Below, in pieces: positions 12,261 to 56,000 of a stretch of 64,000 nucleotides of DNA (position 1 is the stretch's first letter; every line of letters starts with the position of its first letter). Below the pieces are notes generated by a model that ran no database searches, was not told where the DNA came from, and saw only the letters and a list, made by a program, of their open reading frames with translations. The DNA comes from Crambe crambe (taxonomy: Eukaryota; Porifera; Demospongiae; Poecilosclerida; Crambeidae): positions 6,138,001 through 6,202,000 of the forward strand of contig OZ004591.1 in NCBI GenBank assembly GCA_963924555.1. The letters are read 5' to 3'. Made by a program: the position numbers and the translations under genes.

Positions 12261-12816
12261 AATGGGGTGTGGCTTCAAGATATCCTGTGGGTAAGGTAAC
12301 AAAAGTACACAAAAATAGTCACAGCTTCTATTTGCTTTTCATTTATACTGCTTGTAGCCCAACAATTCAGCACTCTCCAAGATAGCCCTTTTCAAAGCCA
12401 TGATCTTTGCAGATCTGCTCGAGCAACATTGCGCGACATAATTTTTTTTTTTTTTTGATGACGCATGACGTCAGATTAAGGCCAGTACTGCTGACTCTGC
12501 AGAACAACTTGACCATGCGAGTTATTTTTCCACCGCCCTGCGAAAAAAATAAGTGGGCTGGCTTGCGAGACTATGACAGCACCTGCTGCACCTTCTCACA
12601 ACCTCTTGCAAGGAAACTTTTGAAAAGGCACTATCACTCAGAGCAATATTGCACATAATTCTTTAGCAAGTTATTATTGTATCACATCATGAGCCTGGTT
12701 ATTTCACGTTATTTCACATTACTTTCTCTCTGTATGTATCCCTTGCGGGCTTTACAATTAAATTTTGAATTTTGTAGTGTCATGGTGTGAGTGGGCGTGT
12801 TTTTTACGCGCCCGCC

Positions 12817-12823
12817 TATAAAT
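12817..12823 (+). promoter_or_regulatory. TATA box of the EF-hand gene
   Basis: TATAAAT stands 42 bp before the chosen ATG at 12865, predicting transcription start near 12847. The transcript would therefore begin downstream of the ATG at 12787, which rules that one out and supports 12865. Confidence 0.6.
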
Positions 12824-12864
12824 TGGCAGTGTCAGTTTGTACCTACATCACAACCGCCGACGAG

Positions 12865-13494
12865 ATGGCAACTAATGCAGCAACTGAAGGGGGAGTTGAA
12901 GCCCACTTGAAGCAGGATCAGTTTCGCGTTCGCATCGGGGCGTATTTTAAGTCACTGGACGAAGATAAAGACGGTATAGTTTCTAGAGAAGATTACTTAA
13001 GTATTGTCCAAAGGATCAATAAGATTAAGGAGGAAAGTCCGGATGCCATTGCCCGTCCAGATGCTATTCCCAAAGCAAAAGAAGCTATTTTGGCTTATGC
13101 TGATGCGGTGGGGCTTACTGAAGGTGTGAAAGCAAGCCTTGACGACTATCTAAAGATGGCAGCAAACGTATTTGCTCAGGAACTTGTGAAGTGGAACAGT
13201 GGAGAAACAACCCTGCTTGAAAATATGGACCAAGCTTTCTTTGATGTCTTCAACATGGATGATGAATTTGTGACCTTACAAGCATATAGAAATCAAGTGA
13301 GTATTTTAAATATATCTCATGAAGCTGCAGACAAAACTTTTAAACACATCCTGAGCATAAATAAAGGGGGACTCAATAATGGAAAAGTAACGAGAAAGGA
13401 TATTATCAATGCTCATTTTGGTTATTGGCACACTCTGGACAGAAGCAAAGATAAGATTTATCCTGATCATAAGAAGTTCGTACAAAAGAAATAA
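12865..13494 (+). CDS. Sarcoplasmic calcium-binding-like EF-hand protein
   Basis: Intronless, 209 residues, starting MATNAATEGG. The first EF-hand loop is clear: D32-E-D34-K-D36-G37-I38-V-S-R-E-D43, with Asp rather than Glu at position 12. Two later hands are degenerate: around FNMDDEFVTLQAY they lack the central Gly, and around NKGGLNNGKVTRKD they lack several acidic ligands. Size and spacing match the sarcoplasmic calcium-binding protein, calexcitin and luciferin-binding group of soluble cytosolic calcium buffers. There is no signal peptide. The TATA box and lack of introns suggest a compact, strongly expressed gene, or an old retrocopy that gained a promoter. One good site and two weak ones suggest reduced calcium stoichiometry. 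The exact family member cannot be fixed by eye. Confidence 0.8.
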   Translation: MATNAATEGGVEAHLKQDQFRVRIGAYFKSLDEDKDGIVSREDYLSIVQRINKIKEESPDAIARPDAIPKAKEAILAYADAVGLTEGVKASLDDYLKMAANVFAQELVKWNSGETTLLENMDQAFFDVFNMDDEFVTLQAYRNQVSILNISHEAADKTFKHILSINKGGLNNGKVTRKDIINAHFGYWHTLDRSKDKIYPDHKKFVQKK

Positions 13495-25829: not shown

Positions 25830-28795
25830 CAACCAGCTGCTGCTTGTGCAGAGATCTCGTTGGTAGTGATAGTAGGAAAAAGAAAAGGCTGCATGGTCCA
25901 GGGTGTGCATCAGCCAAAGAACTACTCCAAGTACTTGCAGGAATTGCACTGGAAAAATTTCCAACATTTTCTGACCAGAAAGCTGTTTTGTGCTATGGCT
26001 GTGAAGGTATACTGAAATGTATCAACAAACTTGAGAAAGACATAGTCAATATAGAAGAAGAAGTTGCCAACAAGAAGGGATATATCAAGAGGAAGATATC
26101 TGCTCTGTCTCAAAAGAGACCTTGCAGCACTGATTCTGCTGATTCTCTACCAAAACGTGGAAGAACAGAAGTTTCTTCCCCCATTGTGAGCTCAACTGAA
26201 GATACTGCCACATCTGCAACTTATCAAACTGAAGATTCGATCACCACTGCTAAGGATGCCAATGATGAAGCTGAGCCACAATGTCATGTTAAATCATCGC
26301 CAAATGTTGAGGCAAGCAAGGAATATTATATCGCTAATTGCTAAATGTGCTAAATGTTTATATTATTATAGGTATTAGTGACGTACCAGAGTAGAACCTG
26401 TCAGTACAATATCAAGACTCCATCTAGAAGGAGGAATATTAGAAGGCTCACTAGGAGAAGTTATCCCACATTGGTATCTGCTTTGGCCAATTCCCCAAGT
26501 ACACGCAACTCTGTCATTAAGAAGTTAGCAGCAATGATCAGGAGCGAGATGAAAAGTCTAAGTAGTAGCAGTTATGATTCAATTTTGAGGGATACCATCG
26601 AGGCTGTGAAGCATTTTCACTGGGACACAGTACTGTTTGAACTACTCAAGAAGGTCCCAACTCTTATGGCTTTGTTAAATCAGGTAATTAAACGATCAGC
26701 TGAAAAGAAACCCCTTCTTTGTATGGTGGCTTCTCAGTTGCTGAAGTCCTATCATCCGTGCATGGGACTGGTACAAAGAGCAGTCTCTATAATGTTGTAT
26801 GGCAATGGGACTGCCAAGCAGGTAAGTCATGACATTGAAATTGTGACTTGGCTATTGATCACTTTCATTTGTATATAGGTCTTCTCAAATTTGCAGCCGC
26901 TCAATATCTGCATGTCCTATCAGCGAACACTTGACCTGGTCAGAGAAATCAGTCAGGATCATGATATTGAGGTTGATTTTTGGAAGGATGAGCTCGTAAA
27001 GTTGGTGAAAGACTCTATCTTGGTAGATACAAATTGCTACGTAGCTAAATGAATTTAGTACACTTTTATGTACACATGCAGAAGGGCACCACCAAAACCC
27101 CATCTATCACAGGTGGTCAACCCACATTGGTGGTGATCGATGAAGATGATCTGGATGAAGACAGCATTGAGGCCCCTCCATTCAGTCCTATTTCAGTAGA
27201 TGAAAACTTTGCTACAGCTGATCAATACCCAGCTGATGGTGAAGGCAATTTTTCACTGGGTGATCCTGAAAGTACTAACTTTAATGATGATGATGATATT
27301 GAATCTATTGATGCCCTGGTAATTTATCTTATTCAGTCAGCTTGCATTTTTACCATCTGCTCGACTGTTAGCTTTCTATGATACATATGTGTGACTGTAT
27401 ACTATAAATTAATATTTTAGGTACAGAGTGTGAATGAAGGTGTCCAGATGCCAGAGAAAGAGGAGAGCACATGGTTTGGATATCGATTTGTGGGGGACAA
27501 TATAGACAAAAATATTCAGCCATCATTTCAGCGGCAGGGAGAACACAGTGTGCAGTCACTCCATTATTTCCACGGCTATGCTGTTCGAGATAGGGTTAAT
27601 CTCACCACTTATTCTGATGATATTCCACCTTTCATCACACCTGATCCTAGCATCCTCCTGCCATCAGTTACGGATTTATCCTTGTTGAAAGAAGAGCTGA
27701 CAGTGCTAATATCTCGGTTAGTAACTATTCTATGATAATGTAGAAGTTTATATATAGGTATAATTTTTACAGCATATTAGTTCACTATATGGAGGAGTTT
27801 AAGGATCAAGCTAAACATGTTCCTATGCATCTGCCCAGTAGACACCCAAAAGAGATGGCATCAAAGTCAGAAGTGGTATGCTATAGCTAGTTTTGCTTTG
27901 TTTTGTTTTTCAGCCAAGTATGGTTTCTTTCAGATACCACTTGGGGTATTACTCTTCAATGAGAACAAGCTGGATGAGATGGGACATATTTTGAATCATT
28001 ATATGACAGCAGAAGATTTCTTATTACTGATGCTTCATGCACACACAGTTGCTGGTGCAAAGACAATTCAGGCATTGAATCCTGTTGAAAGTGTCCAAGA
28101 CCTGGCAAAGTTGATTCTAGCCAATTATACACATTTTCCTCGATTCAGTTCTGGTGACCTTGAGCCTAACATAGATAAAGTTCATCTATATGCTACCGAA
28201 TTGCTCACCCTTAGCTTAATGTGGCACTGCTTTCATGATGCGATTCGAGAAGGGGACGGAGAAAGAATAATAAGATGCTGGAGGTTTTTCCTTGTTCTCT
28301 TCAAGAGTACAAACCATCGCAATTATGCAAAAGAGGCAGTGAACTTGCTTGTACAGTATTACACTCTCTCAGACAGGCAAAAGGCACAACTTCTGTGGAG
28401 TCGCTGCATCAACACACGGGGATATGCAGGAACCAATATACCATGTGATCTCCATTATGGAACATTTAAACCGGCGACTCAAGTCGGTGGTCAGAGGAAT
28501 GGGTGCAAATGTAAATGCTGCTGCAATAGAAAGAGCTGGAAAATCCATTGCAGTAGTACATCATGTGTGCCAGCTATTTGAACAACATCCACGATCGGAC
28601 CATCATCCAATTCCATCCTTTGGAGAAGATTTTAACAAGGTGCTAAAAGAATTGGAGGAAGAAAATGTATTCATGACCCTTTCTGAGAGACAACATAAAA
28701 GTTTCAAATTCACTTCTGGAGTAATGGAAAAATTTACAATGAAGGAATTACAAAAGAAGATAAAAGCAAATATCACAAAATTACTTAACACATGA
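25830..28795 (+). pseudogene. DUF6589-type putative transposase gene with a one-base frameshift
   Basis: Exons read: about 25830-26309 (donor GTTGAG or a GC donor), 26372-26821, 26879-27022, 27082-27318, 27421-27716, 27773-27875 and 27934-28795. The N terminus has CCLC...C..C spacing with a Lys-rich stretch, like a zinc finger; the start codon is unclear. After acidic and coiled segments come VGDNIDKN, SLHYFHGYAVRDRV, CWRFFLVLFKSTNHRNYAKEA and a Cys/Asn/Asp/Glu/Arg end (PCDLH / MEHLNRRLK). I recognise this as the DUF6589 family. The DN, D and E residues could form an RNase H-like DDE site (inference). A single extra T at 28455-28456 shifts the frame between CDLH and MEHLNRR, so this copy is broken unless it is a sequencing error. 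It ends with TGA at 28793-28795, overlapping the helicase gene's end by 15 bp. Confidence 0.7.
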
Positions 28796-30125
28796 GTTAC
28801 AAGTACATTTTATAGTACATACATCACAGCATCTACATCCACTAACAGCTATGCTATCTTCTGAATATAATAAAAACTCTTGAAATAGTAATCTGCGCCT
28901 GCAATGTGTGGAATTATTCATATAGTTCTTAATGTTAGATGTTGTATTTCTGCCTCCAACTCCCTTGTACAATATAGCCTTTGAAATATTACCATCTCTG
29001 CCAGAACGTCCTGTCTCTTGCACATATTCTTCCAATGTTGATGGTATGCCCCAATGAATTATTCTTCTTATGTCTGGGCAATCAACACCCATGCCAAAGG
29101 CTGTAGTAGCAAGAATCAGACGGAGTTTACCATCTTTCTGGGAAAAAAGCTTTAAAACATCTTCCTTTTTGTCCCTTGTCTGCACGGCTGTAAACATATC
29201 AATTAGACGATAATCTGCATGATTAGGATATCCAGCAGGATCAGTAAAGTTCTCTCCTAGATAGTGCTTCAAATGAATATATAAATTGGAACAGTTGGTG
29301 AATGTCCTTACATATATAACGGTTTTTGGAAAACTTGCTCACATAGCCTTCATTTCTTCACATAAACATTCTATAAATTGATCCATACTTATTGTTGGAT
29401 GAACTTCATACACTATATTGTGCCTATGTGGTGGCAATGCAACAAGCACAGGTTTAAAAGTGACAATTGTTTTGAAATGACATGAAATGTTTCAGTTGTT
29501 GCAGTTGCTGTCAAGGCTAGAATATGTACTCCACTTGGGATGATACTCCGTAAATCCCCTATCTGACTAAAAGCTGATCTAAATTCAACTCCCCATAGTT
29601 TTACACAATGAGCTTCATCTACAGCAACACAGACAAGTTTTTCTTTGTAGATAGACGAGAGTAGCATATTTCTGTAAGTTGAGTTCATTATTATTGCTTC
29701 AGGTGTAACGAAAACAAGTTGTACTTGTCCCTCCAATATCTTATTCTTTTGCCCAGAGCCAATAAACTCTGCAGATAATCCACAAGATGAATATTTTGAA
29801 GATTGGTCAATCATCAGGGCTATAAGGGGACTTATGCATAAGACAATGCTACCAGATTTTCCTGCACAAGAAAGTTATTTATTAATAATATATCTATTCA
29901 GTTATCTAGCTACAACTTACCAAACATTGCATCAAAAGCATATGGCAAGAGAGCATATATGATGGACTTCCCAAATCCAGTGGGAAGAGATACAAAAACG
30001 TCATTGCCATTCATAAAGCACTTTACTGCTTCCACTTGCTCTTTCTTCAATTTGGCATATCCAAGCCTCCTCCCACTCCCTTGAATAGCCGCCTCCAGTC
30101 TATAATCATATTCCTGCTCAGCCAT
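28781..30125 (-). pseudogene. RecQ-like DEAH helicase gene, with a frameshift and a stop
   Basis: Exon 1 is 29921-30125, exon 2 runs from 29871 down. Visible helicase motifs: Q motif (LGYAKLKKEQVEAV, Q30), motif I PTGFGKS (48-54), Ia (CISPLIALM), II VDEAHCV, III LALTATAT. After the breaks come IV-like TVIYVRTF, V (LRLILATTAFGMGVDCP) and VI (QETGRSGRDG). It ends in a C..CC..C..C.C..C cluster, the RecQ zinc-binding part. There is no winged-helix or HRDC domain. A frame shift near 29455 (after KQLSLL, before KPVLVALPPHRHN) and an in-frame TGA at 29339-29341 disable it. It is a 3'-5' DNA helicase by family, presumably for transposition or replication of the element. It is convergent with the DUF6589 gene. 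Confidence 0.75.
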
Positions 30126-30534
30126 TAGTCTGGTTCACGAGACTACTCAGCCATGTGGCGCTAAGAAATCCGGAGCGCAGATTTTTCCTAAAATTGGTGA
30201 TGTATAATAACGTCATAGCCGCGCCCTTCCTTCCGAAGATTGCTGACTGTGCACAACGAGATCATGTATTGGATTTGACCAGACTCTTTCCTTCCCTCGC
30301 GGTTGGTAAAGGGTCGGGCCCGCGAGACTAATAATAGAGTGATTGCCGGCCGCAAGCATGCAGCTGCTAGCTGGAATGTCGTTAACTGCGCATGCGTATT
30401 TTCCAATTCGGACGTACGTGTTTATTTCGGACGTACGTGTTTATTTCGGACGTACGTTTAAGACGTAGGTGTGGGAAGTACATCTGAATTTATTTTTGAT
30501 ACTGATGGCTTGCCATACGCTCGCTGCAATTATT

Positions 30535-30705: not shown

Positions 30706-31630
30706 ATGTCAGGTGAGTGCTGCTATCTAGTTTTTCACGCTGGCGGCAAGTATTCAACTGTAAATAATTTATAGATGAAAAGCGACCTATTGAGGTCCAA
30801 CAAGACAGGGACAATGAAGAAAGTTCATTCAGATTTACTATCGTGGCACCTCATCTGCCTGCCAGAGAAGCAGAAGGGAGATATCCATACAAACCCCATA
30901 TAAAGAGTGGAGATGGTAAGTGTTTTTAATAGCTGTAGAGATGATTTTTTAAGCTGTTTTTACTTGAATACTTCTGTCCACAATTGTAGCTGTGGAATCT
31001 TTCACTGAAGCAGCAAGTAAAGGACATAGCTCTCGTGATCATTCTTCGTATGTACGCATGGAAGAGGAGATACAAGAGTGCACACCTGAAATGATCGAAA
31101 AAGGTATTTGCTGCAATGATGCCATGAATGCAAACCCTATGATCATTGTGCAATCAACTGTATGATGTGTTTTAGATCCAGCCGTCCATTTATCAGAGTG
31201 GATATTTTGTATAGTGGCTATACCTCTTGGGCATGAGTATCTTAATATTATGTAGTCGGTATCTAAAGAATCTCAGCCCCTGTACTTCAATGAAACACTT
31301 GCTTTGCTTGGCTAGAATTCCACATGAGGCCTTTACCACTATAGGGAAATTGGACAAGCATGCATGCTCAGTTTCATCATGAGAAGATACACAACATTTG
31401 TTTCGCTTGGCTAGAATGCCACATGATCTCTTTAAAATTTCCTAGCTATTGGGGCGAGCCTCATATAATTATATAGCTAATTATTTTAGGAACGTGATAG
31501 TTGTAGGACCCTATAACTTTATCATGATTATCGAATAACCAGTAACTTATTGGTATAGATATCGCATGCTATGGCTAAGAGGATATGAGTGTATGTTGTT
31601 ATTATTGTTGTTATTGTTGTTGTTGTTTTT

Positions 31631-31668
<38 letters not shown>

Positions 31669-34600
31669 GCAGCTGCTAAAAAAGTTCAAGAATCAATCAG
31701 TGGTTTTCTTTGTGCTCTTGGTCTATGCATCGCCATTTCCAGCGAGGAAGGATATGAGAATACCAATCCTGTTCACAATATCCACAATGCTAGTGAACTG
31801 ATAGGCATCACCTTCTCCAACCTTGGCTATGCTACTTTAAAAATCAGAAATCCTTCTAAGATGCAATTGCTAGCAATATTTCAAGCCTTAGCTGTTTGTG
31901 TCAAGTATCCCACGTCGTATTCTCGTCTCTTTATTTATTATACTGGTCATGGTGCGAAGAGTAATCTTATAAGTCTTCGTGATGGATATGTCAGTATCAG
32001 CACACTGAAGACCATGTTATGGAGAGAGAGGGCTCCTAAACTTGGTGAAATGCCCAAGGTGCTCATATTTGATTGTTGTCGAGGCAATATCGATGGTAAA
32101 TCAGATCTTCATGTTAGAGCCTTGTTGCCTATCGAATATGTTGCTGAGAGTTCTGATTCACAATATGAGCCAGCTAGGAATATCTTGACTCTTTTTTCTA
32201 CTCCACCCCTATGCAAAACTTATGCTGCTAAAGATGGGATTGGGTTCACCACAGCAGCACTGGTCAAGCTATTGGAGAAGACAAAGTCACGAAGCCTCAC
32301 CGATATATTCCATTCAGAACTATTAAAGTCTGTGAGAAGTGATGTTGAAGGACTTCAAGAGTGCGACTTAATGTGTCCCTTGGTGGATGGTGTCCTCAAT
32401 GATAATATCAATGTTTATGAAGAAAAAATGAAAGCAAGTAAGTCTATCACCTACTGTGGCCTAGTCATTATTCACTTGCTGCTCAAATTATAAGGGGGAA
32501 ATGACTCTTGCACCCCACAGCTTGTAGGATGCTGGTCTATCAAGTTGTCTATTGTGTTAGTGAATACATTGTGGCCCTGGTTACTATAATCAGTTATCAA
32601 CCTCACCATAAGAATCAGTTATCAACCTCACCATAAGAATCAGTTATCAACCTCACCATAAGTAATTAGATATTGCTGGTCCCCCAACACGTGCATTGAA
32701 AACCTACAACTTGCAGTACAACTTGTGAGAGTTTACTCTTTCTGTTCTCCAGTGAAACCAAAGGATGTCAAATTTGCTGAGAATGGAGAGCAGTGCAGAA
32801 TATCATGGACACCACCTCCACATGCTGCACACCACAAGCTCCAAAAGTACATGTTAGCCAAGAAGCGTCCTCGTGCAGACGACTGGGAGAAATCTGAAAT
32901 CAGAGGTGTGTACATGGTCGATCATGAGTGATAATGATTATAACTTAATGTTCCTCTAGGAGGTTCCTCTGTTACTTATGTTGATGTGAATAAGAGCGAA
33001 ATTGCTGGATACGAGCTAGCAATTGTTGGCTGCTATGCTGAGCCTGTAGGTGTATCCAGTGACGGTGTATCCAGTGACGTGACCTGGCTAGAAAACGGTA
33101 ATGACCACACCATTTTAATGAGCATACATCTTTTCTGACTAAAAGTTACATTTTTTGGTTTTGTTTTGCTTTGTTTTGTTTGTTTGTTTGTTTGTTTGTT
33201 TGTTTATTTGTTTTTTAAGTAGTATTGGTGTTTTAACTTTCTAGAGAAAAAGCATTAGTTCACATGACTCTCTGCTGAATGCATGAAGTTTTGATGGCTG
33301 ACTTGCTAGCTTTAGTGATTGAAGACTTCACTTTAGTCTAAGCTCTAAAACTTTGTCATTTATAGCTACATTTTTTTGATGTTGCACAATTTGACACACT
33401 ATAAAGTCAGCCATTTTCTTTAGCTTAGAAAATATAAACTCTGGAACACATAAACATAAGGTTCTGCTCTTTAAGCCTGTGGAACTGTACATAGAGAAAA
33501 GGAAATGGTGTCGCTGTCCTGCCAACCTCACAGAACTATCTGTGAAGATTTTTAAGCTTGTATGATAGTGTAGTACGCACATGTACTTCCTGGATGACAC
33601 GAGAGGAATGGTTCTTTGCAAAACCAAACACTATGAGGATTCCCACTATCTTTATTATCTGTAGCTATGCATTCCATAATGTTAGTTTACAGCCATGAAT
33701 AGTGCATATGGAGTAGAGTTATAGAACATTTGTTTATTGTGAGTGAACTTGTGTTGTAGTCCTAGCCATGAATAGTGTGGATCATAGATCATGATTAACG
33801 TTATTTTTGTTCCTGTTTATCCATGAACCATGCTATTGTCCTAGCCTGTTTCTTAGAATGTGCACTAAATAACATGATGTGTTTGCAAACTCTGACCCCA
33901 TTAATGTACACAGACAGACCAGTGCGCCCTCAGATTCGGTTATTTATAATCACCAGACTACCATGCAGGCCATATAGCATTACTATAATGCACGCTTTTT
34001 TCAAAGACGGCACAGAATTAAAGGATTTCGCTTTAAAAAAAATAATGTATCATTATTCAGCTGCTGTTTAATCTTACAGTTGATGTCGCCCCCCGCAATG
34101 TGAGAGTGAATAAAGCCGATGATGGTCTCACGTTTTTCTGGGAGAAATCAGTCAATGGTGACCTCTTTTCACCAGTTGGATTCAAGATTTATAGAAGAGG
34201 GAAAAATAGCACTCGTGATTCAGATTGGATGGTTGCTTCCAGTGACATAGCTGCTGAGGAACGTCACTGCACTATCCCTATGGACTCACTGGATACCAAT
34301 GTTTTCAAAGTTGAAGCCATCTATAAGGATGGCAAACAGGCTGGAAGCATAGCTACCCCCAACCCCAACCAGCAAGAAAAAGGTATAGAGTCATTACAAT
34401 ACTCTGTGGTTTCACACATACACACACGCACGCACACACACACGCACACACACACACACACACACTTTCCACAAGCTAACCAATGGGTCGGGAGATTAAT
34501 GGGACCGAAACCCTGGGTTCTCCCCCGATGAGTGGTATGAATTGCTGACTAACTCGGATCAATGGGAGTGTTAGGCTTCACTATATAAATAGGCTGTAAC

Positions 34601-34685
34601 TTGGTCCCAATCAGCAGTGCAGTGGACAAGATCATTTCCAAAAGTTTTTATTTTCATTTTTTTGTTTCTGCTTAAACAACCCCCT

Positions 34686-34754
<69 letters not shown>

Positions 34755-34803
34755 TGAACCTTGAAGCTGCCCATAAAACACACACACACACAACAACACT
34801 ACA

Positions 34804-34873
<70 letters not shown>

Positions 34874-36016
34874 CACTACAATAATAACTATGTAGCTTTG
34901 ATACCACTAATATTATAATAGTCAGTCAATAACAATAATAATATATTCCTTTCATGTTTGAATATTATAATAGGAACATCCAAGAAGTGTGTCATGTGCA
35001 TTGCCATAGCGATTGTTGCGATTGTTATGCTTATCTTAGTGCTCATAGCACTTATAGCAGTCGTGATTGTCCTTCTCCGGTCTGTTGTGCCTATAAAACC
35101 ACATTTCAACCAATATGCTGAAGATCAAGATCTCGTTGACTGTGATGTTCTACCATTTGAAAACAGTAGGCTATACTCTGAAATTGCTATAACTGAAGTG
35201 GTGACTAGTGGGAAGAACGATAGTAAAAAAGTTCCAGTTAGCGTTTTCTCGGTTGATAAGAAAAAGTTGGAGTACAATACCTCACATGTCAGTCTTTCCT
35301 TCACTAAGTCTTTGAACGAGTCCAGCAGGTTTATTATTTCCAGCAATGATCAAAATAGGTCCTTGTATATGAGACCAAAGTCAAATATAACTTCGGAAAC
35401 AGTTATTCAAGGTTCACCTACTAAAGCCACAGTGTATATCATCAAAGGTGAAAAAAATGCATATGACTTTATTGAAGATCCGACATCTGTGCCTCACTAT
35501 GATGATAAAATCGATATCATAGGAGCTTCCGTAAAGAGCAAAACAGTAACTATTGAAAACAGTGATTATTATTACGTAGCTGTCGATATTGCGACCGATG
35601 AAGCCATTGAATTCACGTGCAACATCAGCTTCTTTATCATCTACATCAATGGCAACAATGACTATTTACAAGATTTGCTATTCACCAACTCTCAGCAAAT
35701 AAAAGAAGTTGGAGACCGTATACATGTGCCTCTCGATCAGGAAGGAAGAAATGTGACTCTCTGCTACATCCATGACCCTAGGTCTACTAATGGTACAAAT
35801 ATAACCCCTCAGCATGTACATCTCAATATCGAATACCAGCCAAGAGTTACTCTTTATGTTATCTATGTTGCAGTCATTTTATTACCTATAATAGTTTTTA
35901 TCATCATTATTGTATTATTAGTTTTATGTTTGTGTTACATGTGTAAAAATAGATCTCGTTTGTGTTGTACTACCCATCCTCACCATTATGAACCCATTAA
36001 TACAGATGATACATGA
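30706..36016 (+). CDS. Caspase-like / FN3 / two-pass membrane protein, gene 1
   Basis: Eight exons: 30706-30712, 30775-30915, 30990-31103, 31673-32437, 32753-32905, 32960-33097, 34080-34382 and 34974-36016. They sum to 888 codons (887 residues), and every internal junction is phase 1. Residues 1-87 are polar. 88-342 is a C14 caspase-like domain from one exon, with catalytic His180 (IYYTGHG) and Cys223 (FDCCRG; caspases usually have QACRG). Two FN3 domains follow (about 343-439, with ISWTPP; 440-540). TM1 is at about 547-578. A roughly 255-residue segment with eight N-x-S/T sites and three cysteines shared with its paralogue comes next, then TM2 (about 833-861) and a Cys/His-rich tail. Glycosylation sites imply a luminal or extracellular middle part, which puts protease and FN3 in the cytosol. 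No DED, CARD or signal peptide. Cell-death or immune signalling is inference. Confidence 0.85.
34485..34560. repeat. Dispersed repeat, inverted second copy at about 57125-57205
   Basis: GGTCGGGAGATTAATGGGAC, CGAAACC and TGGGTTCTCCCC(C/T)GATGA occur here, and in reverse in a myosin intron (57125-57205). Two copies of an uncharacterised small repeat, each beside a (CA)n tract. Confidence 0.6.
34690..34872. repeat. Long (CA)n tracts in caspase gene 1 intron 7
   Basis: (CA)n at 34690-34752 and 34807-34872, about 65 bp each, with a shorter one at 34418-34465. Open frames reading Cys-Val repeats here are artefacts. Confidence 0.95.
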
Positions 36017-36120
36017 TAATTCTCATCTTTTTATAAGTTATTATATTTTCATATGAAATAGAAACGATCTCAGCTGTACAAAACATTATGATGATGGGAA
36101 GAGTGATTATATGGGTGAAT

Positions 36121-38411
36121 TCATTGAATACGTGTATAGTTATGACTATGGTTGTGGAAATCACAAAGCCTGACCACATGACACAATGAACCACACAACA
36201 CAAGGATACACAAAACCAAGATAAGAGACTCAAAGGCAAAGATCCTGCCTGGGATGTAGTCAATGACAAGATGGATACTAGGAGAACCAAAGTCTAGGTG
36301 ATGGATGAAACAGAGAATCAAGTTTCTTCCATTTGCATCAAGAGAGTGAGTTATTGAGTACCCAACTCCTGGAATATGCTCCAAGTTAGTCAAGTTGTAG
36401 TCGTCTCTGTCAATGTAGACAACATTGAAGCTGACATTACACATAAAATCGATGCCAACATCAGTTGAGATCTCGACAGCAACGAAATGGTAACCATTAT
36501 CGGTCACTAAAAAAGTTTTGGTACTTCTTAAATCATCAAGGATGTTGAGTTTTTGTTGGTAGTGAGGGGTGGATGATGAATCTTCAATGAAATCATTGAC
36601 ATGCTGTTCACCGTTGAAAAGATATGCCACGGCCTTATTAGGTAGCTTGAGGGCTGAAGTTTGAATATCAAAATTCAATGTTATTTTGGAGTTTTTTCTC
36701 ATGTACCAAGGTCTATTGTAGTAATCGTATGGGACAATGAATCTATTATTGCTAGATTTTCCCAAAGGTCTGACAAACGGTGGACGAATATCTGTGAAAT
36801 TGTGATACTTCAACTCCGACTTTTTGACAGAGAATACATCGATTTGGAAGCCGTCTTTGTTGTCGTTTGCTTCATCAGTAGCCGATTCAGTCACTTCAAT
36901 TGCCGAATAGAACCAGGAACTTTGGGTTGGAAGTATATCGCAATCGATCACGTCACTTGCTAAGGCCAATTCATTGAAATGAGGTCTTACTAGATACACT
37001 AATGGGACGAAGGTGATTCCAACTGCAATAAAAACGCTTAGCAACATCAGTGCTAGGCAAGGACATCTCCACTTCTTCGGAAAGAATCGTTCTGGATATA
37101 AAAAATAATAATAATACTTGATGTGTGCACATGCAAAGCCACACCCTTTCTCTCAGTCACTATTGTGAACTATAAATTACAGTGTGGTCTAATAAACATT
37201 AAGAGCACTAAAATTAATCAAGCTTAATGGATACTGTCTGTAAATATATCAGTCTCTGAATGCTATTAACAGATATGTACTGAAGGCATACACATGGGAA
37301 CTGGGGACAAAGGGGCACAACACACAGCGGGACTCACTATGTATCTGTACTCCTAAGTCGTCTGTCATTACAGCTTCTTGTCCCACACTGGTCCTGTCTT
37401 TGTAAAGAGCCACAACTTTGTATCTGTGTGTCTTGAATGAACCACCAATAACAGTACAGTGCCGATCCTCGGCAAAGAGATCATCCGAAGCAACGACCCA
37501 CCCACCAGGACCAGCTATGGTCTTCTTGAGGATCTTGAATCCAATTGGTTTGAAGATGTCACCATTAATAGACTTACGCCAGTAGAAGGTAAGGCCATCT
37601 CCATCCTCACTAACTTTCACATTCCATGGAGAAATGTCAACTGCAGAGGATAAAGGTATGAATATCCATCATCAGTGAATCATGCAAATAAAAAATTATA
37701 CTAAACTTGCATGCCCAGTCAAGAAAAAGAGTTCATACAAGTACTGTAGTGCCAGGGATAAAAATACTAACAATTATGTGGATGAATAGATAGCAACTGA
37801 ATTACACATAGATAATATCACATTCATTATACCTTAATTGGAGTAATTGTTACAGCTACTGTAGATTTCAGGATGGTTGTCCATAAGGAATGAGATATAG
37901 GTAGTGGCTTACAAGGACCTAAGAAACCTGGTCCTTTCATGTCCTATACAATCCATGCAGTTGTGTAAGCCACAGAACAAAATGTATCCACCTATTCCCC
38001 AAACCTTCCTGACAACCAACCTGCAATGGACAGTAATCACTCTACTATTTTTTCATTTGTTATTCCTAGGACTAAAGCCAACTGTTGTGGTCAAAGCCAC
38101 AATTAATGTCAACAGTGTGAAAGAAAGACACACTACAGTACTACAGTATAATGAACCAACTATTTTCCAGCCAAAAGATGTCACCATACACAGTGGAGGA
38201 GTCAGCATAGCAGGCAACAACTGATAACTCGTAACCAGCTAACTCTCTGTTGGATACATCAAAGCAAGAGGCAGTGGCATCTCCTGCATGATTATAACAA
38301 TAACAATGAAACACACAATCATTCATAAGCCTACATGTTATTTTGCTAACATGCACATAGATACCATCCCACCCAAATTGGCATATATCTTCTAAACTCT
38401 CACATTGGTTT

Positions 38412-38472
<61 letters not shown>

Positions 38473-38688
38473 ACAGTTCAGTTTGTGAGGACAAACCTTC
38501 AATGCCAGACATATTCCAGTCCTTCAAGCCAGGACGTCTCTTGGCCAGCATATATTTGAGGAGGTTGTGGTGTGTGGCATGTAAAGGAGGTGTCCATGAT
38601 ATTCTACTCATCTCCCTGTCTTCAAAACACTTAATCTCTGTTGGCCTCACTGTGTGTGTTATGTGTGCATGCGTACGTGTGTGTGTGT

Positions 38689-38734
<46 letters not shown>

Positions 38735-40444
38735 GCATGTGTTTATAACAGTATAGTGAGAGAGCCTGGGGTTGATGCTGGACTAACTTTGGCCACCAGT
38801 TTTAAGACTCACTTGCTTCCATCTTCTCACTATAGACATTAATGCAGACTTCAAGAGTGCTCTCCATGATTGGGTACATGTGGACACACTCTGGATAACA
38901 TTCCACTGCTTTTTTGATAGCCTTGTATAAGTCTGACTGGAAAATATCAGCCAAGCTCCGAGACTCTGGCTTCTCCAACAACTTGACAAGTTCAGCTGTA
39001 GCTAGTCCAATGCCGTCATCAGCAGCATATGCTTTGGTAAGAAGTGTGGAAAAGAGAATCAGAGTGTTCCCAGATCTTCCATCTGCTGGTGCTCGCTGGA
39101 TTGCTGAGTTCTCAGCTAAGCTGTACATCATCGGGAACATGGCTTTGTTGCTAGGTGCTGAATTCCTGTCATTGCTCCCTCGACAGCAATCAAAAATGAG
39201 GACTTTGGGCATTTCACTAATTTTGGGAGCAACTTTAGGCCACAATAGAGTCTTGAGGTAACTGATGTTGATGTAGCCGTCATGAAGACTGATACAGTTC
39301 TGAATGCCATGACCAGTGTAATAAATGACTAGACGATGATACCACTTTTGGAATTGGACATGTTTGGCAACAGCTTCAAACACTGCAAGTAATTCTATCT
39401 TGGAAGGATTAGTGATCCTGAATGTAGCATAGCCCAGGTCTCTAAATGTTCTGATGATGATATCCCCAGCTTTGTGGATATTGGGAACAGGGTCGGTGCT
39501 TTCACATCCTCGCTCACTAGAAATGGCAATGCATAGACCAAGGGCACAGGGAAAACCATCCACAACTTCTTGTATTTGCGGGGTGACTGAAAAGAATGAT
39601 CAGAACAAGGAGAGTGTTATACAAGGTAACCTTATTGTTCCTACAAACCCTTTATTTTTTACATACAATATTATGTGTGTAATGATAATTGTGTAAGGTA
39701 AATGAGTCCAATCAAAAGTGACATACCTTTGGCTATACATTCTTCTGTATCAACTTTCTGATAGTCGGTTGGAATGATAGAATAAGTCTTGGCAGATATC
39801 AGTCGTGGAACTTCTGCAGGGATTTATGAAGAAATCACAGAATACATCCCAAAACAGCTCATTAGTGGAGATCAAAGGTTCAAAGACCCATGGACTTTTC
39901 GATCAGCCAGATCAATCAAATCATGCTGCTGGCTATTACACTCCTAAGCAAAAAATTCTGACCCAGGTCTGTTATTTTGGAAGCTATAATTATTATATCA
40001 CCATTTCCAATGTGGTGCTTGTATGGGTGATATCTTTCATCACTCTCTCTGAGAAGCTGGCCAGCCACTATATTTCTGTAATCCTCCCCTCCATTAGTTT
40101 CTTCCACTTGAATAGGTGTGATAAATTCTCCCTCTGCATAAAAATTAATGGAGTAAGTTTGTTACTTAGGGTGGTTAACGCCCCTCCCACTTTTTGCTCT
40201 GTTTTATATTCTACAGCAAGTTAAATAACAACTGTGTTATAGTTATATGGGCTAGTCTGACTTGTTTGCTTATTCTGTCCGCTCTAGTTTATGGCTATTA
40301 ACTATTAATCGGAAATTCCATTTAGCTAGCTAGCTAGGGAGTAACTGCTTCGGCTAGAATTTGAAAGACTAGTATTCCATGTAACCACGTTGTTGAAGTG
40401 TTCGACTTACCAAATTGGAAGGAAGTAGGATCAGAAGCTGCCAT
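36121..40444 (-). CDS. Caspase-like / FN3 / two-pass membrane protein, gene 2
   Basis: Seven exons read on the minus strand: 40411-40444 (start MAASDPTSFQF), 39727-39813, 38813-39586, 38497-38649, 38161-38283, 37338-37640 and 36121-37091. They total 815 codons (814 residues), with all junctions phase 1. The third exon encodes the caspase-like domain with His133 (IYYTGHG) and Cys175 (FDCCRG). Exons 4-5 and 6 encode two FN3 domains; the 153 and 303 nt exons equal those of gene 1. The last exon holds TM1 (LALMLLSVFIAVGITFVPLV), an ectodomain with NFT, NVS and NLT sites and conserved Cys, then TM2 and a His/Asn-rich tail. The N-terminal region is shorter than in gene 1 and unrelated by eye. It stands tail to tail with gene 1, with 104 bp between stop codons. 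Same inferred role and topology. Confidence 0.85.
38408..38471. repeat. (TC)n tract beside an exon of caspase gene 2
   Basis: 64 bp of TC lies 25 bp from the donor of the exon 38497-38649. On the other side, 38680-38700 is (GT)n followed by about 31 G (38703-38733), close to that exon's acceptor. Both are intronic in the gene model. Confidence 0.95.
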
Positions 40445-43337: not shown

Positions 43338-45191
43338 TCATGATTTTGATGCTCTGTCATGAGGTAGATTGAAGTCGAGGTCTGGTCCAATGGCCACTAT
43401 GCCATGTGGGTTGATCTGCTTATGACTTTCCTACAACAATAAAAAATATTAAAAAAATTAAAAAAACTACTCATCTGCAAACCCAGAGACTCCTATGTGG
43501 GGGTAATTTTAACATCAAGGTGTTAATTTCAAAATTGCTGAGACTTTGAGTTCAACTTTTAAAAGCAGCATTGAAATAACCATCCCACTAGCTAGTAGCC
43601 AACCTCCCATAATCGTTGCCCTGGGTACTCTGTACATTTTGCTATCAGCACTTGAAATAGCTACCTGATAGTGGTGTTCAATGTGGAATCTATTGGTAGT
43701 GTCTCCAAAGCCTTTGGTTTGGTAGAGATCCCTCAGGTAGCCCCAGAGATTCGGATAATCCACAATCCTCTTCTTATTACACTGCAAGACCATAGCAACA
43801 GTAAAGGTAATGCTAACCATTATTTTCGTTCTCCATCATACATGTTTTAGAATGTAGCTCTGCTGAATAGAGCAATCTGATTGGTCAGTTACACACTATC
43901 TATATCTCATAGTGCCCTCATGGAGGGTACTAAGCATTGCAGCCCTTGCCCGGCACAGGAATTCTGTTGCAAGTTCAACTGCACTATGTTTTCTAGCACG
44001 AGGGTGCTACTAAGGTCTTGAATTCCATTGGTTGAGGTGTCTACAGCGCTGTCAGTCTGTTTATTACAATGGGTACTAAGCTTAATAGTGGCATCATGTT
44101 CTCTCCACCCACCTTAAAATGGCCCACGTAGACGGGGTCAAAGCGCACCAATGTGGTGTACAACCTGACATCAGCCTCAGTGATACTGGAACCAGTCAAA
44201 TACCGCTGACGAGAGAGGATCTCTTCCACGCGATTGAGAGCTGCAAACACCTCACGAACAGCTTTATCATACGCCTCCTGAGCAGTGGCAAAGCCAGCTC
44301 GGTACACACCATTATTGATGTCTCTACGAGGTTAAAAAATTATAAATTAAAAAAATTAATGCTAGATCAGAAAATTTACATTCTGGAAACTACATACCCA
44401 TGTCAGCTACTGGGTACTTTATTAATGTACATGTACTGTAGCTGATGGACACTTTTTCCAAGTTATGCAGCTTTTATTAAGTACCATAATTATGCTATTC
44501 ACTATTGACAATAAAATCGTACTTTCAAACACATAATATTATTGTACCTGTATATCCACTCATTCAGCTCATCAATCTGTTGCCTCAACTCCTCTGGATA
44601 GAGATCCACTGCACTTTGCTCCTTTGTAGCACAAAACTCATTGAACTCAGTGTTCAGCATGCGAATGATCTCTGAAGATTCATTGTTGACAATTGTCTTC
44701 TTCTTCTTGTCCCACAGAACAGGCACAGTGAATCGACCATCATAATCACTCTGGGCAAGAAAATAGATGTCTCTCAGGTGCTCCGCTCCATTAACTGTGT
44801 CAGCAGTAGCACCTGGAACCTCGGGACTGAACTTCCACCCCTTTTCCCCCATTAAATAATCCACTACATTCACCGAGATACAGCCACTCTCTTCTCCAAG
44901 CCCCTTCAATTGTCGCACAATTAAAGTCCGGTGGGCCCAGGGACATGCATACGAGACATACAGGTGGTAACGCCCATTTTCTGCAGGAAATTCATTACTG
45001 CCATCTCTGGTGATCCAGTTCCTGAAACTGCTAGGCTTGCGTACAAACTCTCCCTTTTGATTGGCCCATTTTAGGATGTCAGATCCAGCCTTTGCTTCTT
45101 TGGACATTCTTGCTTGATTGCTCCCGATGACCTTGCTCACTGAATGGTTCAGAAGTCTGCTAACTTGCACTCTGAGGGTGGATGATACCAT
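43338..45191 (-). CDS. S-glutathionyl-(chloro)hydroquinone reductase (Xi-class GST, ECM4/YqjG type)
   Basis: Four exons read on the minus strand: 44548-45191, 44113-44323, 43665-43781 and 43338-43430, giving 354 residues in frame. The catalytic Cys83 sits in SYACPWAHR, the C-P-W signature of the family, followed by a thioredoxin fold with VPVLWDKK and NNESSEIIRML (glutathione site). The helical C-terminal domain has YRDINNGVYRAGFA, SSITEADVRLYTTLVRFDPVY and the typical ending INPHGIVAIGPDLDF. It reduces glutathionyl-hydroquinones to hydroquinones, releasing oxidised glutathione. The first 28 residues are basic and Ser-rich without acids (MVSSTLRVQVSRLLNHSVSK), which looks like a mitochondrial presequence; a second Met (29) could start a cytosolic form. 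The next gene downstream of its promoter is on the same strand, but there is no sign of an operon. Confidence 0.9.
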
Positions 45192-45452
45192 TAAATAAAT
45201 GAAGTTGAGCTTAAGCCTTAGTTAGCACTGCTTATATACCTAGTATGGCTTGCACGCTCTAATGGATGATGAGTGACGTCGAAGAACTCCTTGCTGTATA
45301 CACGTCGTCAAACTGTGCATGTTAATTAACTACATGTATGTACATGTATGTGCGCAGTGCATTCGCGATTCGCTCATGCGCGCGCCAAAGCGGTTGTCTA
45401 CGCGACTCTTTACCAGACAAATACTAAAACTGGAAAGCAGTATTATTAAATA

Positions 45453-52128: not shown

Positions 52129-52970
52129 ACAAGAAACCCACTGTTATTGGAGTATACTAATCTTCTTTCTGTTGTTGTTTTTATGACAGTAAGAAAGAGG
52201 AGCAGCCAATATCCAAGCTGGAGCAGATTTACGAGAGCAACACGCTAATTGAGAAGGACACGTTTGATGAAGGAGTTGATCCATCCACTCAGACACCAGT
52301 TCTTCACAAACTCCGGGGCTCTCAGCTCAAACGAAGATTGTCCATAATTGTTAGTGTCTGAATTATTAAGCATTAGTAAAAGTGTTTGAGTAAAACATTA
52401 GTGTTTGAGTTAGTGTTTGACTTAATGTTTGAGTAGTGTTTATATGTAGTGTTTGAGCAGAACATTAGTGTTTGAGTTAGTGTTTGACTTAATGTTTGAG
52501 TAGTGTTTATATGTAGTGTTTGAGTAGAACATTAGTGTTTGAGTAGAACTTAGTGTTTGAGTAGCTTTAATGGTGAGACCTGATAATATCAAACACTAAT
52601 GTTCTACTCAAATACTACATATCAAACACTTGTTTTTTGTAATGTGTATGCAGTTGGAACTCCCTGACCCATCAGTGACTGATAACCTCGCAACCCTGTC
52701 CGACCTCACTGAAGAGATAGTCCTCAACTTCCTACGAGACAGATACACCAAAGACCAGATCTATGTAAGTGTGCACCTACAACACGCATTATTTTGAATC
52801 ATCTCTTCTTCTTTTTTTTTCCAGACTTATATTGGAGAGATATTGGTTGCTCTTAACCCTTTCAAGCCACTTACCTTCTACACAACATTAGTATGTTCTA
52901 GAAGGGTTAAACCATTTAGCTATACCATGGACAATAACTCTGTCAACTAGACTACCCAATGTGTTTAAAC

Positions 52971-53015
<45 letters not shown>

Positions 53016-56000
53016 GGGGGGGGGGGGGAGGAAAGGAACCTACGACAGTTACTGAGATCCTGAGTTTTTTCATTTTATTTTTATTTTGTTTTTTTTCTCT
53101 CTCTCATTATCACCAGGTGAGCAATGAATATTCCAGTAACCCCCCAAATACATCCCTGCCTCCACACGTCTATGCGATGGCCAATCAGGTTTACCGGGAC
53201 ATGATGGCCGATGGGACTCCGCAGTGCTGCGTCATCTCTGGAGAGTCCGGAGCTGGGAAAACAGAGACATGCAAACTCCTCGTCCAGCAGCTGCTTTACT
53301 TGGCTGAGTCCGAGGAAGTGGAGCTGAACATCAAGATTGAACAAGTAATTTAAGACTTCACAACAGTTACATCTGTAGAAAGAGATACTGTTGATGAGAC
53401 ACATGGTGATACACATGGTGTCTGATTAAAGAAGTACATGTCCTGATAAAAGAAGTACATGTCCTGATTAGAGAAGTTCATGTCCTGATTAGAGAAGTTC
53501 ATGTCCTGATTAGAGAAGTTCATGTCCTGATTAAAGAAGTGCATTCATTATTGCAATGGAGCACACACAAAGAAGAGAGTTTGAGCCATGCTGAGAGGTC
53601 ACTTTCCCACTGGATAATTTATGCATTCAGATATATAATATATTATCTTATTCTGAAGGTCAGCCCAATTCTCGAAACTTTTGGAAACGCTCAGACCGTC
53701 ATGAACAACAACAGCTCGCGATTTGGCAAGTACTTGGAGTTGATTTTCTCTTCTAAAGGGACAATCCTTGGAGCCAGCTACAAGGACTACCTGTTGGAAA
53801 AACCAAGGGTGGTGGTCCAAGCAAGCAATGAGAGAAACTTTCACATCTTTTACATGATGTATGCCGGACTGTCGGATGAAGAAAAGAAAGAGCTGAATCT
53901 CTTGAATCCAGAATCACACAGGTCAGTATGACAACGTAACTATGGATACTTCAAGAAAAGTGTTCCTTTGGAGGCGGAATGAAAATTTTTATCTGCAGGT
54001 GTTTGACTGGATCGGGTGCGTCACTGGAAGGGATAATGACGGACCTCATGAGGGGGCAGTTCTTGGAAGTGAGGGATTCCCTGAGGGCAATCGGTTTCTC
54101 AGAACGAGTGAGTCAGAGTGAGAAAGTGAGATTAGTTGTGTGATGAAGCTTGTTATTTTTACGTATAAAATGTTTGCTTTAAAGACTCATCATGTCATCT
54201 TGTGTCTGTGTAAATTGCTTTTTAATATCAGCATAATAATCTGTGCACTATCATTATCAATTTGTAGGATGAAAGTAACCTCATACAGACACTGGCTGCG
54301 GTTCTGCACATTTGTGACATCAATTTAGAGGGGCAAGATGAGGGCAGCGTGGTGTCCAATCCTTCCCACGTGGAGGTTGTGGCAAAGCTCCTGCAAGTGG
54401 AAGTAGAGGAGTTGTTGTCCTGCCTCACAACAGAAGTCATGTACACTAGAGGTCAGTTGATTTTATGGCTTCTGACCTTAACGACCTTTACCACACCCCA
54501 TGTTTTAGATAACTATACCCTTGCCATTAACCCTCTTGAGTTTCAGGCGTTAACAACCCTTTACCATGCTACTAGTCGTAACTTGACAATCCTTTACCGC
54601 ACACACAGCATTAATCATTTCTGTGAACCATCAAGCCATTCACTGTTATTATGCACTGTTATTAAGCCATTCTATTTAAGCCATCCAGTTATTAAGCCAT
54701 TCACTGTTATTAAGCCATCCACTGTTATTAAGCCATTCACTGTTATTAAGCCATCCACTGTTATTAAGCCATCCACTGTTATTAAGCCATCCACTGTTAT
54801 TAAGCCATCCACTGTTATTAAGCCATCCACTGTTATTAAGCCATCCACTGTTATTAAGCCATCCACTGTTATTAAGCCATCCACTGTTATTAAGCCATCC
54901 ACTGTTATTAAGCCATCCACTGTTATTAAGCCATCCACTGTTATTAAGCCATCCACTGTTATTAAGACACAACTGTATACTCAATTAGGTGAAGAGATTG
55001 TCCGGAAGCGTAGTGTGATGCAGGCTTCTGATAACAGAGATGCTCTGGCCAAGGCTGTGTATGGGCGGATGTTCAGCTGGATTGTGAATGGAATTAATCA
55101 CCACCTGCAACCCGAAGACATCGAGTAAGAAATTACTCACCTCCTAAACCACTTGAACTTCAAACTACATCATTTTATGTAACAGACCTACTCATCCACT
55201 GAAGATAGGATTACTCGACATCTTTGGATTTGAAAAGTTTGAAAAGAACAGTTTTGAGCAGGTATACCTGTAATAGTATGCATCATAGTTAACTTCATGA
55301 TTCAATCCCTGGCGTCACATGATCTCCAGCATCATATATTATGATCCCCTGTATGCAGCATTGCATGGTCTCTATATGTAGAATGATCCCCTGTATGTAT
55401 CACATGATCTCCATAGAATGATCCCCTGTATGCATCACATGATCTCCATTCTGCATCATATGATGATTCCCTGTATGCATCACGTGATCTCCATATGTAG
55501 AATGATTCCCTGTATACATCACATGATCTCCATAGAATAACCCCCTGTATGCATCACATGATCTCCATAGAATGATCCCCTGTATGCATCACATGATCTC
55601 CATAGAATGATCCCCTGTATGCATCACATGATCTCCATAGAATGATCCCCTGTATGCATCACATGATCTCCATTCTGCATCATATGATGATTCCCTGTAT
55701 GCATCACGTGATCTCCATATGTAGAATGATTCCCTGTATACATCACATGATCTCCATAGAATAACCCCCTGTATGCATCACATGATCTCCATAGAATGAT
55801 CCCCTGTATGCATCACATGATCTCCATAGAATGATCCCCTGTATGCATCACATGATCTCCATTCTGTATCACATGATCCCCTATATCACATGATATCCTC
55901 CACTTTGTGCAGATATGCATTAACATAGCCAACGAGCAGCTGCAGCACTACTTCAACAAGCACATCTTTCAATGGGAACAAGAGGAGTGTGCCAAAGAAG

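Follow-up and report, generated by a model that had tools for sequence, protein, structure and literature searches.

A 64,000-nucleotide stretch of the genome of the sponge Crambe crambe (contig OZ004591.1, positions 6,138,001 to 6,202,000; hereafter the window, to which coordinates refer unless a contig is named) contains two convergent genes, A and B, whose stop codons lie 104 bp apart. Both encode a predicted protein composed of a C14 caspase-fold protease domain, two FN3 domains, a transmembrane segment (TM1), an ectodomain, a second transmembrane segment (TM2) and a short tail. In each gene, eight exons are joined across seven introns with GT/AG borders, and all junctions are in phase 1. 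For gene A, whose model is supported by the alignment to gene B, the spliced frame is open over 887 residues, reproducing the length given in an earlier note on this DNA. For gene B, splicing yields 858 residues rather than the 814 reported there; because the gap of 44 codons equals the length of exon 2, this exon appears to have been left out of the earlier model. The features are as follows.

30706..36016, + strand: gene A, 8 exons, 887 aa
30706-30712, 30775-30915, 30990-31103, 31673-32437, 32753-32905, 32960-33097, 34080-34382, 34974-36016, + strand: gene A exons
31673..32437, + strand: gene A exon 4, C14 caspase-fold protease domain (TGHG ... FDCCRG)
32753..33097, + strand: gene A exons 5 and 6 (32753-32905, 32960-33097), first FN3 domain, by profile match to titin and myomesin FN3
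34080..34382, + strand: gene A exon 7, second FN3 domain, by profile match to titin FN3 (E 1.4e-7)
34974..36016, + strand: gene A exon 8, predicted TM1 (~34985-35085), ectodomain (~35090-35855), TM2 (~35858-35932) and cytosolic tail with YEPI (35987-35998), from hydropathy, sequons and a structure model
40444..36121, - strand: gene B, 8 exons, 858 aa
40444-40411, 40133-40002, 39813-39727, 39586-38813, 38649-38497, 38283-38161, 37640-37338, 37091-36121, - strand: gene B exons, 5' to 3'
40133-40002, - strand: gene B exon 2, 132 nt, conserved in the paralogous locus L025 (55%, E 2e-12) and weakly in L024 (37%, E 5e-4)
38813..39586, - strand: gene B exon 4, C14 caspase-fold protease domain, by Pfam (52.1 bits) and family alignment
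38161..38649, - strand: gene B exons 5 and 6 (38649-38497, 38283-38161), first FN3 domain, by alignment and profile search
37338..37640, - strand: gene B exon 7, second FN3 domain, by alignment and profile search
36121..37091, - strand: gene B exon 8, predicted TM1 (~37065-37000), ectodomain, TM2 (~36255-36184) and tail with YTRI, from hydropathy and alignment

The proteins encoded by A and B form a single BLAST alignment of 841 columns (residues 7-830 of A and 18-816 of B) with 45% identity (E 0). Exons 5 and 7 are identical in size between the genes (153 and 303 nt, respectively) and exon 4 is nearly so (765 nt in A, 774 nt in B), as had been noticed before.

A genome-wide search (143 Mb, 119 contigs) with the C14 exon of B as query returns seven full-length strong matches: B itself, A (58% identity) and five further loci, L022, L023, L024, L025 and L026, the matches other than A and B being 44-75% identical to B. 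The next-best match has 28% identity (E 7.5e-14). At all seven loci, exons 5, 6 and 7 and the transmembrane-ectodomain exon follow downstream on the same strand, and the phase-1 borders recur among the paralogues, including the border into exon 8; only L026 departs in that its acceptor for exon 8 is placed more upstream. As these exons are linked at seven loci with order and strand unchanged, the arrangement is not plausibly due to chance, and it is very likely that A and B are each one gene and that the C14-FN3-FN3-TM-ectodomain-TM architecture is real. The domain order proposed in the earlier note is thus upheld, and the same architecture is present at five more loci. The genome also contains an eighth ectodomain exon standing alone (L027), two short C14 pieces with stop codons (C1:6800198 and C1:6817689), and two distant ectodomain matches near these decayed pieces. 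L022 and L023, ~167 kb from each other on C1, are near-identical and represent a recent duplication.

The protease domain matches the Pfam C14 family (PF00656) with 61.4 bits in A and 52.1 bits in B (cut-off 21.4), and a caspase fold is predicted. Among solved structures, caspase-7, CED-3 and caspase-3 come closest both in sequence and in fold. The active site, TGHG...DCCRG, is of the DxCRG type known from metacaspases and paracaspases. All seven members keep the His and Cys together with the adjoining glycines (TGHG, CCRG), while the residue two before the catalytic Cys is Asp in six and Glu in L024. No DED or CARD is found by Pfam, in agreement with the earlier note. According to PMC4357240, the S1 pocket of caspase-7 holds the P1 Asp through Arg87, Gln184 and Arg233, and the acidic S1 residues of MALT1 are D365, D462 and E500. 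When the family is aligned with the classical caspases of the same genome, all three aspartate-binding residues are missing: Gln is replaced by Asp or Glu, and neither Arg is present. Profile comparison places the domain nearer to the genome's DACRG-type C14 genes. A tree of the genome's own C14 domains, with long branches and no named C14B reference, gives a split with support of 84/80 and does not by itself decide the grouping. Separate QACRG/QACQG caspases are present in the genome. Since the alignment shows no aspartate-holding S1 residue and the DACRG-type genes are nearer, the family protease is, by sequence, not a caspase in the strict sense and appears closer to metacaspase/paracaspase-like C14 genes; of the earlier reading, the caspase fold is supported and a caspase in the strict sense is not. 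About a dozen GHG/DACRG C14 genes (L046-L058), which as judged from sequence are a metacaspase/paracaspase-like expansion, occur in the genome besides ten read with Gln before the active site (classical type).

The two FN3 domains are recognised through family profiles. Pfam fn3 (PF00041) has no match in whole proteins A and B, gives weak hits below the cut-off for first-domain pieces in three of five members (best E 0.013; A 15.1 bits of 25), and gives none for second-domain pieces of six members. A first-domain profile built from five members matches, in the PDB, FN3 domains of titin (4e-16) and myomesin-1 (3e-6); its titin and myomesin matches have E values of 1e-4 or lower, those to contactins about 2e-3. 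The second-domain profile (six members) matches titin (1.4e-7 and 1.7e-4) and neuroglian (0.03). The assignment of two FN3 domains therefore holds by family-profile similarity to known FN3 structures, although the Pfam cut-off is reached by neither.

In exon 8, hydropathy identifies two strongly hydrophobic segments bracketing an ectodomain of ~260 residues, and the structure model of this exon has a beta-rich domain whose strands lie between two long helices. We counted N-glycosylation sequons in exons 4-8 of the seven paralogues, with expectations obtained by shuffling. The ectodomains contain 33 sequons versus 19.7 expected, and the cytosolic part 15 versus 16.6. The excess is found in A (8 versus 2.9), L024 and the near-copies L022/L023, is slight or little in B and L025, and is absent in L026. 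A two-pass topology with both ends in the cytosol is suggested by hydropathy and the sequons, together with the absence of any hydrophobic stretch at the N-terminus. The tail carries a Yxx(hydrophobic) motif in all seven genes (YEPI in A, YTRI in B, and YARL, YVRL, YTRL, YVPI and YEWI), 4 to 14 residues from the end by a count made without a chance control. Clathrin adaptors in the cytosol recognise motifs of this kind.

Strong divergence notwithstanding, the ectodomain is probably a remotely homologous APD1-4-type domain, as a relative encoded on C17 (26% identity to exon 8 of A, E 6.6e-7) matches Pfam APD1-4_N and APD1-4_M above their cut-offs (42.4 and 41.3 bits), and hhalign links the family set to the APD-matching set (probability 90.8%, E 1.2e-6, 167 collinear columns). 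The family itself stays below the cut-off: none of nine aligned ectodomain members reaches it for PF16040 or PF16041 (best E 0.059, 13.5 bits of 27). The genome has nine APD1-4_M matches over the cut-off. It also has a separate family with two transmembrane segments and APD1-4-type ectodomains (L028 at C17:1.11 Mb, and C17:5.92, C20:2.13, C14:1.17 and C15:4.49 Mb), some with PPxY-like tails; no caspase was noticed in the part read.

A search of full-length A against 5.8 billion proteins scored 7989 candidates, none of them at E 0.001. Single-exon profiles retrieved seven proteins with the C14 profile and eight with the ectodomain profile. Among the former, P0003 is B and P0006 is A; P0002 is 99.6% identical to L023 and P0005 100% to L026; P0001 is 92% identical to L025, P0004 87% to L024 and P0007 88% to A. 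Among the latter, P0012 is A, P0013 is 86% identical to A, P0008-P0011 resemble L025, B, L026 and L027 by eye, and P0014 and P0015 are distant (32%, 28%). The tail motif recurs, within the same range of distances from the end, in P0013 (YEPI), P0014 (YISI) and P0015 (YESL). Because P0007 and P0013 are both listed on contigs of length 377,210, and P0001 and P0008 likewise on contigs of length 723,917, the C14 and ectodomain exons of each pair probably lie on one contig. The proteins with 86-92% identity may be another species' genes or divergent copies.

The tree built from exons 4-8 unites B with L025 (support 100) and leaves A outside that group, with support of 62 for the split placing A with L022-L024; in a tree of the C14 domain alone, A joins L026 (87/84). 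A simple recent local duplication as the origin of the convergent pair was rejected, since the nearest relative of B is not A but L025, which lies on another contig. L024 (+) and L025 (-) on C1 likewise face tail to tail, and an old convergent pair was possibly copied to C1 as a unit, but the two trees disagree on the place of A. The dN/dS values between A and B are 0.19, 0.17, 0.46 and 0.25 for exons 4, 5, 6 and 8, respectively, and are rough because dS exceeds 1.6 in exons 4, 5 and 8; exon 7 is saturated. For the C14 exon, dN/dS is low (0.14 to 0.31) in the five computable pairs. The short exon 6 speaks against uniform purifying selection: dN exceeds dS for L022-L024 (0.149 and 0.056, 40 codons) and is close to it for A-L025 (0.54 and 0.60), L022-L023 being too similar for judgement.

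Elsewhere in the window, frames named by eye resemble a RecQ-like helicase (28781-30134, -, just upstream of gene A), an EF-hand calcium-binding protein (12778-13494, +), an omega-type glutathione transferase (44502-45221, -) and a myosin head (52892-55128, +). Introns of A and B contain long CA/TG and poly-G microsatellites (34683-34872 and 38663-38743).

We propose, with about even confidence, that A and B are two-pass receptor-like proteases activated by clustering, both belonging to a family of seven genes. In the long cytosolic part at the N-terminus, the caspase-fold protease would be followed by a stalk of two intracellular FN3 domains; TM1, a beta-rich domain on the outside (or in the lumen), TM2 and the short tail would come next. 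A ligand or cell contact would cluster the ectodomains and bring the protease domains together, and dimerisation would switch them on; initiator caspases and MALT1 are activated by dimerisation. The active protease would act on substrates in the cytosol, and perhaps on its own linker, cleaving after a residue that is not aspartate and may be Arg or Lys. The basic linker residue kept in six of the seven paralogues (L026 lacks it) would fit self-cleavage. The tail motif would set the surface amount through endocytosis or sorting. We infer the activity, clustering, specificity, ligand and any cell-death or immune role; the receptor, death or immune role suggested earlier is plausible.

Several points weigh against this proposal. 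The topology is derived entirely from hydropathy, the missing N-terminal hydrophobic stretch and sequons, and the ectodomain model has moderate confidence (pLDDT 73, pTM 0.61). Only D462 of the MALT1 acidic S1 residues has a counterpart, as seen in a sequence alignment that does not include MALT1 itself, and with one of three residues matched, a basic P1 preference is weakly supported. The basic linker residue is Thr in P0007, and the linker is a low-confidence region. An allorecognition role might be accompanied by diversifying selection on the ectodomain, of which whole-exon dN/dS shows no sign.

Some of the same evidence would also suit a protease tethered in secretory or endosomal membranes, whose luminal APD-like ectodomain serves targeting or cargo binding in constitutive processing or quality control rather than an outside signal. 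We consider this unlikely, yet deserving of real weight: the ectodomain relative matches both APD1-4 models, the profile comparison links the families (probability 91%), the conserved tail motif would sort the protein, and plant APD RING proteins are grouped with transmembrane-domain proteins in PMC6118397. However, the APD1-4 link is remote, with no scanned member over the Pfam cut-off, and present data do not tell plasma membrane from endomembrane. A scaffold or pseudoprotease, using its caspase fold for binding or regulation without cleavage, would explain an S1 pocket that has no caspase residues and one of the three MALT1 acidic residues, and the Glu of L024 at that place. We judge it improbable, given that a dead protease need not keep the dyad, whereas TGHG and CCRG are invariant in all seven members, and given the low dN/dS of the C14 exon.

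A soluble C14-FN3 gene wrongly fused to an adjoining gene with two transmembrane segments is suggested by the ATG-started open frame that exon 8 has by itself (P0012) and by the lone exon L027, but the same downstream set in order and strand at every full-length C14 exon, with phase-1 borders into exon 8, leaves this very improbable. Even less credible is a true aspartate-specific caspase on a receptor-like body, acting in classical apoptosis. Caspases are indeed the nearest solved structures by sequence and fold, but the genome has separate QACRG/QACQG caspases, and Arg87, Gln184 and Arg233 of caspase-7, as given in PMC4357240, have no counterpart in the alignment.

The family shares with metazoan caspases (C14A) the fold, the His-Cys dyad and similarity to caspase-7, CED-3 and caspase-3; it differs in lacking, by sequence, the aspartate-binding S1 residues, in having no detected DED or CARD, and in its membrane segments and FN3 domains. 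With MALT1 and metacaspases (C14B) it shares the Asp two before the catalytic Cys, and it is nearer to the same genome's DACRG-type C14 genes, but it has no match for the other two acidic S1 residues of MALT1. MALT1 itself is a soluble protein that carries DD and Ig domains. The joining of caspase and FN3 is shared with a caspase gene of the mussel Mytilus coruscus, where FN3 lies in the prodomain and the text available mentions no membrane segment or ectodomain (PMC10967218). Bacterial caspase proteins with transmembrane helices have been described in conflict systems, where the caspase-superfamily domain lies on proteins with such helices in a third or more of cases and membrane action is proposed, though these are two-gene systems with other partner domains (PMC7159879). 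Plant APD1-4 membrane RING E3 ligases (PF16040, PF16041) have a probably homologous ectodomain, but where the present family has a caspase-fold protease at the N-terminus, their effector is a RING ligase, as given by the Pfam name and PMC6118397. Among the titles and abstract beginnings listed in searches of open-licence literature, none describes an animal protein with the caspase-FN3-two-pass architecture; the joining of FN3 to a caspase is known from the mussel prodomain.

In animals, caspases are normally reached by membrane receptors only via adaptors. Tentatively, and with somewhat more doubt than confidence, we suggest that in these seven genes an ectodomain is joined through a membrane pass and FN3 domains to a non-aspartate caspase-fold protease in one polypeptide, which would do the job of death receptor, adaptor and initiator caspase. 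The seven genes and their domain borders make the receptor-protease reading testable with a few expression constructs. If true, a single-chain receptor protease would represent another wiring of outside signals to proteolysis, in a possibly early-branching animal, and would bear on how caspase signalling arose.

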